DNA of 64,000 nucleotides from Calditrichia bacterium (GTDB lineage Bacteria > Calditrichota > Calditrichia > RBG-13-44-9 > J075), in the NCBI GenBank assembly GCA_028284905.1, contig JANQQU010000036.1, positions 1 to 64,000 on the forward strand, written 5' to 3'. The notes under the pieces are model-generated. The model was not told where the DNA came from, did no database searches, and saw only the letters and a program-made list of their open reading frames with translations. Shown here piece after piece: positions 2,368-6,947 of the stretch. Positions within the stretch are counted from its first letter, which is position 1. Every line of letters begins with the position of its first letter. Made by a program: the position numbers and the translations under genes.

Positions 2368-2642
2368 CTAACCCATTTGATTTTTGTGAAATGCCCTAAC
2401 CGGTACAAGATTGAAAATTTACATTCGATTTAGCGCAATACCAAGTTTCTTTTCCGTTTAGAAGAATGAATTTTTCACTAGTGAACATATTTACAAGTGA
2501 ACATATTTATATCTTTTTTCGAAAAAAAGCTTGACAAAACAATAATTTATCTTTATTATTTCCAGTGAACCAATGTATACTTAATAAAACAAGTATCTAA
2601 ATTTGGGGAACACAGTTCAATTTTCTTAAGGAGCATTATATT
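2368..2642 (+). promoter_or_regulatory. lexA promoter region with GTGAAC repeats (candidate LexA boxes)
   Basis: A near-consensus sigma-70 promoter is visible: TTGACA at 2531-2536, a 17-bp spacer, TATTAT at 2554-2559. Upstream lie two exact 14-bp direct repeats AGTGAACATATTTA at 2480-2493 and 2496-2509 (16-bp period), and the first overlaps a perfect 12-bp palindrome TTCACTAGTGAA at 2474-2485. A third AGTGAAC at 2564-2570 is followed by CAAT and GTATACT, giving an imperfect inverted repeat just past the -10 box. AAGGAG at 2628-2633 serves the lexA start. Autoregulation by LexA is inferred from placement, since the operator of this lineage is not known to me. Confidence 0.6.
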
Positions 2643-3263
2643 ATGAAAGGGCTCACCAAGCGCCAGGAAGATGTTCTGCAGTTTATCGCAGAATATATTT
2701 CAAATTATAGCTATCCGCCCACTTACCAGGAGATTGCCGATGCTTTTGGCATTGCCTCCAAACACGGTGTTGTTCGCCATCTGGAAGCGCTAAACCGCAA
2801 AGGATATATTGAAAAGGCTGACACCACTGCCCGCAGTATCCGTATCGTTGATAAACGCTATCAGCATCTACCCCCGGAAATGATTAACCTGCCGTTGATT
2901 GGCCGGGTTTCTGCCGGTTTTCCCATTCTCGCCGAAGAAAATATCGAAGATCATGTTGCTGTCCCCCGCCGCTTAATCAAATCTGAAGGACGCTATTTTA
3001 CCCTGCGCGTTCAGGGGATGAGTATGATGAACGCCGGTATTATGGATGGCGATATGGTAATTGTTTTCTCCACAAAAGTTGCTGAACCGGGACAAATCGT
3101 TGTCGCGCTTATTCAGGATGAAGTGACCGTTAAACGTTTAATGGTGAATGACAGCAATAAATACCTGAAAGCGGAAAACCCGGACTATCCGGATATCCAT
3201 CCTGATGGCGACTGGCAAATTCAGGGACGGGTTGTTGGTTTAATCCGTGATGTTATCAATTAA
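2643..3263 (+). CDS. lexA: LexA repressor
   Basis: A 206-residue SOS repressor of usual length. Residues 1-70 form the winged HTH (LTKRQEDVLQFI, then PTYQEIADAFGI and GVVRHLEAL). The Ala91-Gly92 self-cleavage bond sits in GRVSAGF. The S24 peptidase dyad is present: Ser127 in VQGMSMMNAG and Lys164 in VTVKRL. RecA-stimulated autocleavage would inactivate it after DNA damage. The start is supported by AAGGAG 9 nt upstream and the canonical MKGLTKRQ N-terminus. It is followed after 47 bp by a degenerate LexA-like gene and then by two DNA glycosylase genes, a sensible SOS or base-excision-repair neighbourhood. Confidence 0.97.
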   Translation: MKGLTKRQEDVLQFIAEYISNYSYPPTYQEIADAFGIASKHGVVRHLEALNRKGYIEKADTTARSIRIVDKRYQHLPPEMINLPLIGRVSAGFPILAEENIEDHVAVPRRLIKSEGRYFTLRVQGMSMMNAGIMDGDMVIVFSTKVAEPGQIVVALIQDEVTVKRLMVNDSNKYLKAENPDYPDIHPDGDWQIQGRVVGLIRDVIN

Positions 3264-3310: not shown

Positions 3311-3751
3311 ATGGCCAAGCAAACAACGCTTCAATCAGAAAAAACATTCACCGGTGATGTCACCAGCGAAGAATTTTTACGCCTGCCGCGCCTGGAATAT
3401 CTTTTGGAAAATGCGGAGACTCATTTGAAGAAAGGTGTAGAAAATATGGTAATGAATCTTAGTTTCGATTCAGTCAATCGTTTCAGTATGGCTGTTCCGG
3501 ATAATCGCATGTCCGATGCCGGTCTCCGGAAAGGCGATCATGTTATCGTTGAAAAAAGACGCAGCTATCTGGAAGGGGATGTATTGGTTGTTCAGCTTGG
3601 TGAACGCATTTTCATTCGGCGTTATTTTCGCAGTGCTAATCGGATTCGCCTGGAATGCAACACCCCCGACCGGCAATCCATGATTCTCGACAAGAATACG
3701 CCCGGTTTTGCTATTCTCGGTAACGTTATTCAAGTCATCAGGGAATTGTAA
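3311..3751 (+). CDS. LexA/S24-like protein lacking HTH and catalytic dyad
   Basis: A 146-residue protein whose C-terminal part aligns with the LexA S24 peptidase domain: FSMAVPDNRMSDAGLRKGD matches FTLRVQGMSMMNAGIMDGD, followed by the same beta-strand pattern and a closing GNVIQVIREL like GRVVGLIRDVIN. There is no HTH; the first 45 residues are short and partly acidic. Both catalytic positions are changed: LexA Ser127 corresponds to Arg66 and Lys164 to Arg103, with the same 37-residue spacing in both proteins. It therefore should not cleave itself. It probably shares the lexA transcript (47-bp gap, no terminator seen, only a weak GAG ribosome site). A dimerisation partner or antagonist of LexA is possible but unproven. 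Confidence 0.75.
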   Translation: MAKQTTLQSEKTFTGDVTSEEFLRLPRLEYLLENAETHLKKGVENMVMNLSFDSVNRFSMAVPDNRMSDAGLRKGDHVIVEKRRSYLEGDVLVVQLGERIFIRRYFRSANRIRLECNTPDRQSMILDKNTPGFAILGNVIQVIREL

Positions 3752-3984: not shown

Positions 3985-4881
3985 ATGAATCTATTTCTGG
4001 ATCAGGGCAAGCTTCATCCTACGCCCCCTTTTGACTTTAACAAGACACTCAATTTTTTGAAAATTTTTACCCCGGCAAAAAACGAACAGTTTATTTCCGG
4101 ACAGATGCTGACGAAAGCAATCTCCATTAACGGACAGGCATTTATTTTCCGGATAAAATCGACCGGCACTATCGACCGTCCGGAACTGGAATACGTCTTA
4201 CTCTCCGACAATACAATTTCCGAGGATACAAAATACGCTGCACTGGACCGGGCAACGTTCTTTCTCAGTCTTTATGATAATCTGCAATCGTTTTATGAAA
4301 GAGCTGCTCATGACCAATACTTCAATCCGGTTATTCGCAAACTTTACGGCTATCACCAGGTAAAATTTTTAACACCATTCGAAAATGCCTGCTGGGCGAT
4401 CCTCACCCAACGGATGTCTGTCGTGATGGCCTGGAAGATGAAACAGGCGCTCATCAGGGAATATGGCATTAGTATCAACACGCGTAAATCGACAATGCGC
4501 ACCTTCCCGGAACCGGCACAGCTATCTTTCGAAAAGCGGCATTATCTCACCAAGCTCCTGGGACACCCGCAGAAAGCTGAGTACCTGCATGCTGTCGCAC
4601 AAGCATTTACAGATGTCGACGAAACGTTCTTACGGCATGCGCCTTATGAGAAAGTGCTCGAATGGCTGGAAAATGTCAAAGGCATCGGTGGCTGGTCATC
4701 CAGATTTATTTTAATTCGCGGTTTGGGCCGAATGGAAAGAGTGCCGGCGACAGATAAACGATTACTAGTCGCTGCCACCCGGTTTTACGGGCAGAGTCTC
4801 GCGAATAACATTACTGAACTTGCAAACCAATACGGCGACTCCCAGGGCTATTGGGCCCATTACTTGCGGGTTGTCGCATAA
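3985..4881 (+). CDS. AlkA-like DNA-3-methyladenine glycosylase (HhH-GPD)
   Basis: A 298-residue base-excision glycosylase. The HhH-GPD region covers roughly residues 130-290: NACWAILTQRMSVVMA at the domain start, the helix-hairpin-helix VKGIGGWSSRFI near 232-243, and the catalytic aspartate Asp257 in VPATDKRL, the layout of AlkA-type enzymes that excise 3-methyladenine and other alkylated purines. No Cys cluster of the EndoIII iron-sulphur type is seen. The N-terminal 110 residues fit an AlkA-like beta domain. The next gene follows after 29 bp, suggesting one transcript with the VOC gene. Exact substrate range is not readable from sequence. Confidence 0.85.
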   Translation: MNLFLDQGKLHPTPPFDFNKTLNFLKIFTPAKNEQFISGQMLTKAISINGQAFIFRIKSTGTIDRPELEYVLLSDNTISEDTKYAALDRATFFLSLYDNLQSFYERAAHDQYFNPVIRKLYGYHQVKFLTPFENACWAILTQRMSVVMAWKMKQALIREYGISINTRKSTMRTFPEPAQLSFEKRHYLTKLLGHPQKAEYLHAVAQAFTDVDETFLRHAPYEKVLEWLENVKGIGGWSSRFILIRGLGRMERVPATDKRLLVAATRFYGQSLANNITELANQYGDSQGYWAHYLRVVA

Positions 4882-4910: not shown

Positions 4911-5276
4911 ATGTTTCGAGTCGTTCATTTTGAGATTAGTGCTAACGATCCGGAGAAAATGGTCGCATTTTACAAGAATGTTTTTGGATGGGATATCAAG
5001 AAATGGGATGGCCCACAGGCTTACTGGATGGTCACGACTGGCAAAGACGGTGACGGCATTAATGGAGGTATTTTTCAACCGGGAGAAATTTTTAACGGCA
5101 CTGTTAACACAATTGAGGTCCCGGATATTGATGAATATTGTGAAAAGGTAACATCCAATGGCGGGCAAATCGTTGTAGAAAAGATGGTTATCCAGAGCGT
5201 TGGCTATATGGCTTATTGTAAGGATATTGAAGGCACTATTTTTGGCATTTGCCAATTTGATTCTAATGTCGGTTAA
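4911..5276 (+). CDS. VOC (glyoxalase/bleomycin-resistance) family protein
   Basis: A 121-residue single-module vicinal-oxygen-chelate protein: VVHFEISANDPEKMVAFYKNVFGW is the classic first beta-alpha half, and YCKDIEGTIFGICQ closes the second half with the usual D-EG-xFG pattern. Metal ligands of true glyoxalase I are only partly present (His6, and Glu near 111), so substrate and reaction cannot be named; the set of relatives includes lyases, dioxygenases and drug-binding proteins. It has a strong ribosome site (AAAGGAGG at 4896-4903) and lies 29 bp after the AlkA-like gene. A clear terminator follows it. Confidence 0.85.
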   Translation: MFRVVHFEISANDPEKMVAFYKNVFGWDIKKWDGPQAYWMVTTGKDGDGINGGIFQPGEIFNGTVNTIEVPDIDEYCEKVTSNGGQIVVEKMVIQSVGYMAYCKDIEGTIFGICQFDSNVG

Positions 5277-5368: not shown

Positions 5369-5409
5369 CAGCAGATAGGTGTTTCGACATTCTATCTGCT
5401 GTCTTTTTT
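5369..5409 (+). terminator. Rho-independent terminator after the VOC gene
   Basis: A perfect 10-bp stem, CAGCAGATAG at 5369-5378 with CTATCTGCTG at 5392-5401, encloses a 13-nt loop and is followed directly by TCTTTTTTC. It ends the glycosylase-VOC transcript and separates it from tag, whose start codon is only 14 bp further on, so tag must be read from readthrough or from a promoter overlapping this hairpin. Confidence 0.85.
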
Positions 5410-5423
5410 CTGTGGGGCAAAAT

Positions 5424-5987
5424 ATGTCAAAAAGATGTGAATGGGTACCGGAAGGCAATGATCTATATGCAGATTATCATGATCAGGAATGGGGCGTCCC
5501 GATACATGATGAACGAGATCTCTTTGAATTTTTAATTCTCGAAGGCGCCCAGGCTGGTTTAAGTTGGATAACCATTCTTAAGAAACGAGAGAACTACCGA
5601 AAAGCTTACGATAATTTTGCCCCGGCCATTGTCGCGACCTATGATGATAAAAAGATTCTGGAATTATTGGACAATCCCGGTATCGTACGCAATCGCTTAA
5701 AAATCAATGCGTCAATTGGCAATGCAAAGGCGTTTCTGGCAGTACAGAAAGAATTTGGTAGTTTCGACAAATATATCTGGCAATTTGTTGGCGGTAAACC
5801 AATTGTCAATAAATGGCAATCTCTCCGGGAAGTACCGGCAAGTACTGCCGAGTCCGATGCGATGAGCAAGGATTTAAAGAAACGAGGATTTAAGTTTGTT
5901 GGCTCTACCATCTGTTATGCATTTATGCAGGCTGCAGGATTAGTAAACGACCATACAACGGATTGTTTTCGTTATCACCAAGTATAG
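5424..5987 (+). CDS. tag: DNA-3-methyladenine glycosylase I
   Basis: A 187-residue Tag enzyme, the same length as the E. coli protein, which removes 3-methyladenine from DNA. The zinc ligands are visible: Cys5 in MSKRCEW, His in YHDQEWG, and His/Cys in NDHTTDC near the C-terminus. The substrate-pocket stretch LFEFLILEGAQAGLSWITIL is intact. The frame stays open 15 codons upstream to 5379, but those codons fall within the terminator hairpin of the previous gene; ATG 5424 gives the canonical MSKRCEW start, preceded by GGGG. With lexA and the AlkA-like gene it forms a small alkylation-repair cluster. Confidence 0.95.
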   Translation: MSKRCEWVPEGNDLYADYHDQEWGVPIHDERDLFEFLILEGAQAGLSWITILKKRENYRKAYDNFAPAIVATYDDKKILELLDNPGIVRNRLKINASIGNAKAFLAVQKEFGSFDKYIWQFVGGKPIVNKWQSLREVPASTAESDAMSKDLKKRGFKFVGSTICYAFMQAAGLVNDHTTDCFRYHQV

Positions 5988-6242: not shown

Positions 6243-6641
6243 TACTGATTTCAGCAAAAAACCCCAAGGCAATATTCAGCCTAAAAATTTCCCCTCCAAT
6301 CACTGCACCAGGTCATTCGCAGAGACGTTCAACCGAGCTGTTGGAAGTCTATGGCAAGCATCTTTTTCAACTATAAATTTTCACCCGTTCGTTAGCTCAA
6401 AATGAATAATTATGTAAAAGAAAACGGGTTCAATCACACAAGACAATGCACTTATAGGGGTTTTATTTTTTTATATTCCCATTAATATCTTACCCTTATC
6501 CATATTTTTTTTTGCCCTAAATGCATTTTTTCGTTGACAATCGACGTAAAGTTTAAGTATAATACAATATTGCGTGCTTTACATTTACTCTAAGGCGCTT
6601 TTGGGATAGTTTTTTTATTCATGTTACCGAAAGGAGCCACA
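6243..6641 (+). promoter_or_regulatory. AT-rich gap with a strong sigma-70 promoter
   Basis: About 400 bp without a convincing gene. Near its end is a near-perfect promoter: TTGACA at 6534-6539, an 18-bp spacer and TATAAT at 6558-6563, about 80 bp before the start of the next small gene. The rest is AT-rich and I see no hairpin or repeat worth naming. Confidence 0.65.
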
Positions 6642-6947
6642 ATGAAAAAAGTGGCTGAAACACCTCAATCAGAGAATGAATCGTTATCATCGACTGATAA
6701 GTATGATACAAAAGATATGCTCTTAAAACTTTTTGAATTATTACAAGGAGAGCGGGCACTTATCAAAATTTACAGTAAAAAGTTAAGAAGTGAAGTTTTT
6801 TTGGTTAATCCTGAATTGCAAAATCCGGACGATTTAAGTGTAGAATTTCCCGTCTATACTACCAACGAACTTGCTTTTATATTACCGATGAACGCGGAAG
6901 AGTTTACACAGTTTCATTATTTGAAAACTCGCCTGCCTAACCAATAA
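6642..6947 (+). CDS. Hypothetical cytosolic protein, 101 residues
   Basis: A soluble, mixed-charge protein without signal peptide or membrane segment and no family I recognise. The first 30 residues are Ser/Glu/Thr-rich and likely disordered; the remainder (DMLLKLFELLQGERALIKIY onward) looks folded with alternating helix and strand. ATG 6642 is chosen over 6621 because AAAGGAG lies 6 nt upstream of it. It is preceded by one of the best promoters in the window and followed by a hairpin, so it is probably a well-expressed monocistronic gene. Confidence 0.65.
   Translation: MKKVAETPQSENESLSSTDKYDTKDMLLKLFELLQGERALIKIYSKKLRSEVFLVNPELQNPDDLSVEFPVYTTNELAFILPMNAEEFTQFHYLKTRLPNQ

Follow-up and report, generated by a model that had tools for sequence, protein, structure and literature searches.

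An HTH-less, LexA C-domain-like protein encoded beside lexA in the Calditrichota

The window analyzed here is a 64,000-nucleotide stretch of DNA from a Calditrichia bacterium, in which a complete lexA gene is followed on the same strand, after a gap of 47 nt between stop and start codons, by an open reading frame (ORF) at 3311-3751 (+) whose 146-amino-acid product we label dS24. The genes and features of the locus are as follows.

2481..2512, +: two possible LexA half-boxes, GTGAACATATTTAC and GTGAACATATTTAT, in the upstream lexA promoter region (two-mismatch matches at 2481 and 2497)
2565..2580, +: putative LexA operator, GTGAAC-CAAT-GTATAC, just downstream of the lexA -10 box (the sole exact match in the window)
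2643..3263, +: lexA, 206 aa, complete, with HTH, Ala-Gly site, Ser127, and Lys164 (NCBIfam lexA model, 219 bits against a cut-off of 111; Pfam HTH and S24; alignment)
3311..3751, +: dS24, HTH-less, catalytically dead LexA C-domain-like protein, 146 aa
3470..3730, +: S24 core of dS24, approximately residues 54-140 (Pfam; AF2 pLDDT mostly >90 from about residue 57)
3506-3508 and 3617-3619, +: codons of dS24 Arg66 (Ser position) and Arg103 (Lys position)

Our genome sample comprised 40 Calditrichota genomes, and the relatives designated L050 to L057 are Calditrichota, Calditrichaceae, or Caldithrix MAGs. The lexA operator arrangement recurs at the same place in relatives, and a AGTGAACA-type stretch lies at a similar place upstream of their lexA genes. 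An operator function of GTGAAC-n4-GTATAC at lexA is supported by this conservation. Close to the start of recA, reverse boxes of a related form occur in G000, the window's own genome, and in G003 and G005, and the form GTGTAC-n4-GTACA(T/C) is found at lexA in more distant families and also before umuDC in G020. By number, the 14 two-mismatch box matches found are near chance (8.9 expected), and GTGAAC-n4-GTNYAC has 5 exact matches over all of G000 against 6 for a control pattern, so that box matches away from lexA are no evidence by number alone. Read directly, the 47-nt gap contains no LexA box and no obvious terminator, and dS24 is therefore most simply co-transcribed with lexA. Given the LexA box in the lexA promoter, with a similar one at recA, the pair is probably SOS-induced jointly. 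An RNA-family scan of the window returned no match.

Fold and active site of dS24

Pfam places a Peptidase_S24 match (PF00717) at residues 54-140 of dS24 (E=2e-9; 37.5 bits against a cut-off of 23.3) and gives no match to a DNA-binding domain, including the LexA HTH (PF01726). The NCBIfam lexA model matches only over model positions 112-201, with 45 bits and below its cut-off of 111, and the UmuD model gives 33.5 bits, below its cut-off of 110; the orthologue L050 scores 43 bits as LexA versus 25 as UmuD. By BLASTP, dS24 residues 58-146 align to LexA 119-204 with 25% identity. In AF2 models, the window protein and the distant orthologue L050 alike show a confidently predicted all-beta core that starts at about residue 57 and runs to the C-terminus, with low confidence for the N-terminal 45-50 residues. 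When the window model was searched against the PDB with Foldseek, LexA C-domains ranked at the top (1jhf/1jhc, 1.7-1.8 Å over 88 columns, 25% identity), followed by UmuD' and then lambda CI, and a profile of 19 dS24 orthologues matched LexA structures at 6e-12 and UmuD' at 6e-5. The original prediction had described an S24 protein without a DNA-binding domain directly behind lexA and had proposed structure prediction of the protein alone as a check. Pfam, AF2, and Foldseek agree on that fold, Pfam on the absence of an HTH, and the same-strand gap of 47 nt on the position. A non-S24 fold is ruled out by the two AF2 models and the Foldseek search. Foldseek also returned a weak match to SipA of Streptococcus pyogenes (4n31, E=7e-3), a signal-peptidase homologue without a full catalytic dyad; unlike dS24, SipA is a pilus assembly protein and has no known link to SOS.

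The multiple alignment sets Arg66 of dS24 opposite LexA Ser127 and Arg103 opposite Lys164, giving a spacing of 37 residues in both proteins, just as had been predicted. We counted residues over 30 distinct dS24 orthologues aligned with LexAs. The Lys position is Arg in all 30, and the Ser position is occupied by something other than Ser in 29 (G14, A8, R4, Q1, S1, T1, H1), whereas every LexA in the alignment has both Ser and Lys. The suggestion that both arginines might be conserved among homologues thus holds for the invariant Arg103 but not for position 66, which is Arg in only 4 of 30, and no orthologue combines Ser with Lys, as simple decay in the window's genome would have it. The Ala-Gly cleavage site is missing from the window protein and all orthologues. 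Other positions are family specific: Asn49 (30/30), Arg113 (29/30), and a TPGF motif (T 29, P 30, G 26, F 27 of 30). Asp64, present in 28 of 30, corresponds to a Gly that is invariant in LexA and precedes Ser by two residues, and an Asp64-Arg103 salt bridge may take the place of the catalytic dyad. Five residues past the Ser position, Gly71 is kept in 29 of 30 orthologues; we take it to be the equivalent of E. coli LexA Gly124. Conservation is stronger in the C-terminal strand than in the core (1.11 versus 1.74 bits). From these alignments and models, we file dS24 as a pseudoprotease family of the S24/LexA C-domain kind.

Distribution, linkage, and inheritance

Every Calditrichota genome with a LexA HTH of LexA strength also contains dS24 (31/31), a count that takes in G015, a 62% complete MAG in which dS24 is split over two frames, and G012, in which it is partly masked. 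Both are present in G039, where LexA is cut by a contig end. Among the eight genomes without LexA, dS24 is found in none, apart from G035, which has a 23-residue end of it; G008 (one contig, 92% complete) has neither LexA nor dS24 and retains a DinB polymerase. This co-occurrence is affected by the fact that adjacent genes are missed together in incomplete MAGs. LexA and dS24 are also undetected in G014, of the same genus as G008 (g8), and G012 of that genus has both; a recent loss of the LexA switch in G008 and G014 is possible.

The original prediction asked for homologues next to lexA in related genomes, and in 29 of them dS24 is the next gene after lexA on the same strand (27 measured; G012 and G015 by coordinates). 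The gap is often 3-30 nt across relatives, with start codons chosen by the analyst. In G001 the two genes lie at the ends of different contigs, and in G022 and G023 two genes separate them. LexA is the only candidate partner beside dS24 throughout. The intervening genes (L080:5159-6734 in G022; L081:4739-6314 in G023) are on the same strand with overlapping ends, and we take them to resemble a TcmP / Gp37 (DUF5131) pair; one of the two has no Pfam match. A relative of one of them lies near DUF6504 in G012 (L076:4497-5228).

The dN/dS of dS24 is 0.04-0.19 where dS could be estimated, with several such dS values high and rough and other pairs saturated, and it exceeds that of LexA in every pair where both are estimable. 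At these ratios, dS24 is shown to be under purifying selection. All 30 orthologues form one clade (100/100) on a long branch of their own outside Calditrichota LexA, which argues against a recent lexA duplicate; that origin is unsupported in this tree, which holds only 5 LexA rows from other phyla. The term LexA paralogue used in the original prediction is therefore loose. The dS24 and LexA trees split families alike, although deep dS24 branches are only moderately supported, and this parallel speaks for joint inheritance. Judging from these trees, lexA and dS24 most likely share a history of joint inheritance that predates the diversification of the Calditrichota.

A contig scan for dS24 outside the Calditrichota returned only Calditrichota dS24 and ordinary LexAs, and its narrow patterns could miss distant relatives. 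Across 39 genomes of another phylum, matches occurred only in LexA-sized frames (at least 205 aa, E of 1e-14 or below), and a single-sequence dS24 scan of genome contigs gave no match. Phages and plasmids contain no dS24 match, and the lone viral-contig match (L100) is an ordinary LexA; we therefore rejected a phage or plasmid gene. Although the S24 fold itself is known, we found no description of the lexA-dS24 arrangement, or of dS24, in the open-access literature on LexA paralogues, Calditrichaeota/Caldithrix SOS, DUF6504, and LexA-RecA structures.

Polymerase genes and candidate partners

Downstream of dS24, the window carries genes for an HhH-GPD DNA glycosylase-like protein (3985-4881, +), a glyoxalase-family protein (4911-5276, +), and a 3-methyladenine DNA glycosylase (5379-5987, +), the last of which also has a counterpart after the lexA locus in G003, G005, G007, and G011. 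No Y-family polymerase of the source genome lies on the window's contig. In many genomes, dS24 is followed on the same strand by an 84-aa DUF6504 protein (PF20114) and then a 400-420 aa pol IV-type polymerase (DinB2), and the Y-family polymerase near dS24 in relatives is of this type and not UmuC. This pair, whose polymerase is a second one of pol IV type, lies 0.2-1.1 kb behind dS24 in G024, G032, G021, G016, G039, and others, and it occurs apart from lexA in, e.g., G002, G003, G017, G025, G029, and G034. With or without an adjoining lexA, the two genes are a pair and would make up a two-gene lesion-bypass module. We found no paper on DUF6504 in the open-access literature. dS24 is retained in G000, where a second pol IV-type polymerase is lacking and the sole DUF6504 is a divergent one, and in G005 and G026, which have no DUF6504; a single Y-family polymerase and nothing matching UmuD were found in G005, and in G000 a umuDC pair that includes its own UmuD lies at another locus. 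Since the module can be missing or located elsewhere while dS24 stays, the polymerase association is real but not obligate, and a strict partnership with DinB2/DUF6504 is ruled out.

We tentatively propose that dS24 is a phylum-wide, previously undescribed SOS regulator: an encoded, permanently post-cleavage LexA C-domain pseudoprotease, co-made with LexA from one autoregulated promoter and pairing with LexA (or RecA). Our confidence in this falls a little short of even. It is more tentative still, but quite possible and the likeliest of the readings weighed here, that LexA itself is the partner and that dS24 tunes SOS. Pairing with LexA is favored by the presence of dS24 in all LexA-bearing genomes, directly behind lexA in nearly all; by G008, which lacks both despite keeping DinB; by retention of dS24 where DinB2/DUF6504 is missing (G005, G026); by the loss of Ser, Lys, and cleavage site while the Gly124 equivalent and C-terminal strand are kept; and by the higher score of dS24 as LexA than as UmuD (45 versus 33 bits). 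Against it, the demands of folding may by themselves account for conservation of the Gly124 position and last strand, adjacency to lexA may serve only SOS regulation and not be telling of the partner, and this reading offers no account of the conserved N-terminal part (Phe22, Pro26, Asn49). LexA, RecA, and a DinB are near-universal here, so co-occurrence separates the candidate partners poorly.

Under the LexA-partner reading, dS24 would be an SOS-induced pseudoprotease, a gene-encoded copy of the C-terminal domain of cleaved LexA, made together with LexA from one LexA-repressed promoter and providing a standing supply of LexA-like C-domain. With the C-domain dimer surface kept, dS24 would pair with LexA, and the LexA:dS24 heterodimer, with its single HTH, would bind operators poorly, as reported for the LexA-LexA/CTD heterodimer, an inactive intermediate whose intact subunit is recyclable (PMC3834820). 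After damage, dS24 made alongside new LexA would hold LexA in an inactive mixed form, setting the SOS threshold and delaying re-repression. The LexA-like repressor UmuDAb dimerizes via its C-terminal ~12 residues and Gly124, which is at the LexA dimer-interface position (PMC11332147). The sign of the effect could also be the reverse, with dS24 stabilizing LexA, a role that DdrR and gp7 play toward their own repressors. DdrR of Acinetobacter, whose gene adjoins umuDAb (PMC11332147), and gp7 of phage GIL01 are small binders of LexA-type repressors that resemble dS24 in suggested role only, and we claim no homology; they enhance repressor binding to DNA, whereas titration is favored for dS24. Compared with the LexA C-domain or post-cleavage fragment, dS24 is alike in fold, dimer-interface Gly, and C-terminal strand, but it is the product of a separate gene without HTH, dyad, or Ala-Gly site, has an N-terminal part of its own, and forms a separate clade.

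A close rival, although an unlikely one in our estimate, is that dS24 manages a polymerase as a permanently "cleaved" UmuD'-type dimer, steering a Y-family polymerase (DinB2 or the near-ubiquitous DinB) in SOS. The frequent lexA-dS24-DUF6504-DinB cassette makes this role, absent from the original prediction, a serious one. Cleaved UmuD' works without its protease, so that loss of the dyad and cleavage site would be allowed in dS24; UmuD' likewise lacks an HTH, and its structures turn up in both the fold and the profile searches with dS24. The same role sits poorly with genomes that keep dS24 without DinB2/DUF6504, among them G005 with its single Y-family polymerase and G000 with a separate umuDC, with the DUF6504-DinB2 pairs that stand alone elsewhere, and with the closer similarity of dS24 to LexA than to UmuD. 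Thus, dS24 shares with UmuD/UmuD' the HTH-less S24 architecture and, in many relatives, nearby polymerase genes, but it has no cleavage site or dyad, falls below the UmuD model cut-off, and neighbors lexA, not umuC, even with a true umuDC elsewhere in the same genome.

That dS24 acts on RecA is improbable; as an uncleavable LexA-like C-domain, it would bind the activated filament, compete with LexA, and damp the response once accumulated. LexA peptides cross-linked to RecA* come mostly from the C-domain (PMC3834820), whose fold dS24 has, and dS24 is probably SOS-induced and has no cleavage site, but what dS24 has lost includes the whole region around that site, a stretch that hardly varies among LexAs. 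Slightly more doubtful again is another partner, or a homodimer function, within the SOS regulon, for which there is no positive evidence even though small uncharacterized families lie near or under LexA boxes here; it would give a place to the conserved N-terminal part and to Asn49, Asp64, Arg103, Arg113, and TPGF, which the other readings leave unaccounted for. We give hardly any weight to dS24 as a functionless, decaying lexA duplicate. The lost catalytic residues and cleavage site and the dN/dS above that of LexA would suit decay, but retention in every LexA-bearing Calditrichota genome, the low dN/dS where estimable, and Asn49 and Arg103, invariant in the family and different from LexA, rule it out.

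Standard depictions of the SOS circuit show only LexA and RecA. If our reading is true, a dead LexA-like protein retained next to lexA throughout a phylum would add a third inherent component, with LexA, RecA, or a polymerase as its target, and would exemplify in nature how a protease fold can be turned into a regulator. The proposal is directly testable, as the family is small and its gene adjoins lexA.

Other genes near LexA boxes and lexA-like sequences

Farther along the window, an ORF at 6621-6947 (+) encodes a 108-aa protein of a small family without Pfam or NCBIfam match, whose members turn up repeatedly in the vicinity of lexA among Calditrichota, in several genomes. A similar 104-aa protein at G000:C40:223070 (L087, L103) has an exact LexA-box match (GTGAACGTAAGTATAC) upstream, and this may be an uncharacterized SOS family. 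Also in G000, an 86-aa protein with no family assigned (C2:131953; L086:1531-1791) starts approximately 15 nt behind an exact LexA-box match (GTGAACACACGTATAC). The umuDC genes of G000 (C2:9055-9869; L078:3246-4957) encode a UmuD with the GDSM serine and EFCVRRF where G001 has EFAVKRY, i.e., Arg for the catalytic Lys, so self-cleavage may be impaired. Finally, G003 encodes an 84-aa protein (C79:57420-57614; L101:2421-2675) that consists solely of a LexA DNA-binding domain and so mirrors dS24; its gene is one of a series of short genes on one strand that resembles a prophage.
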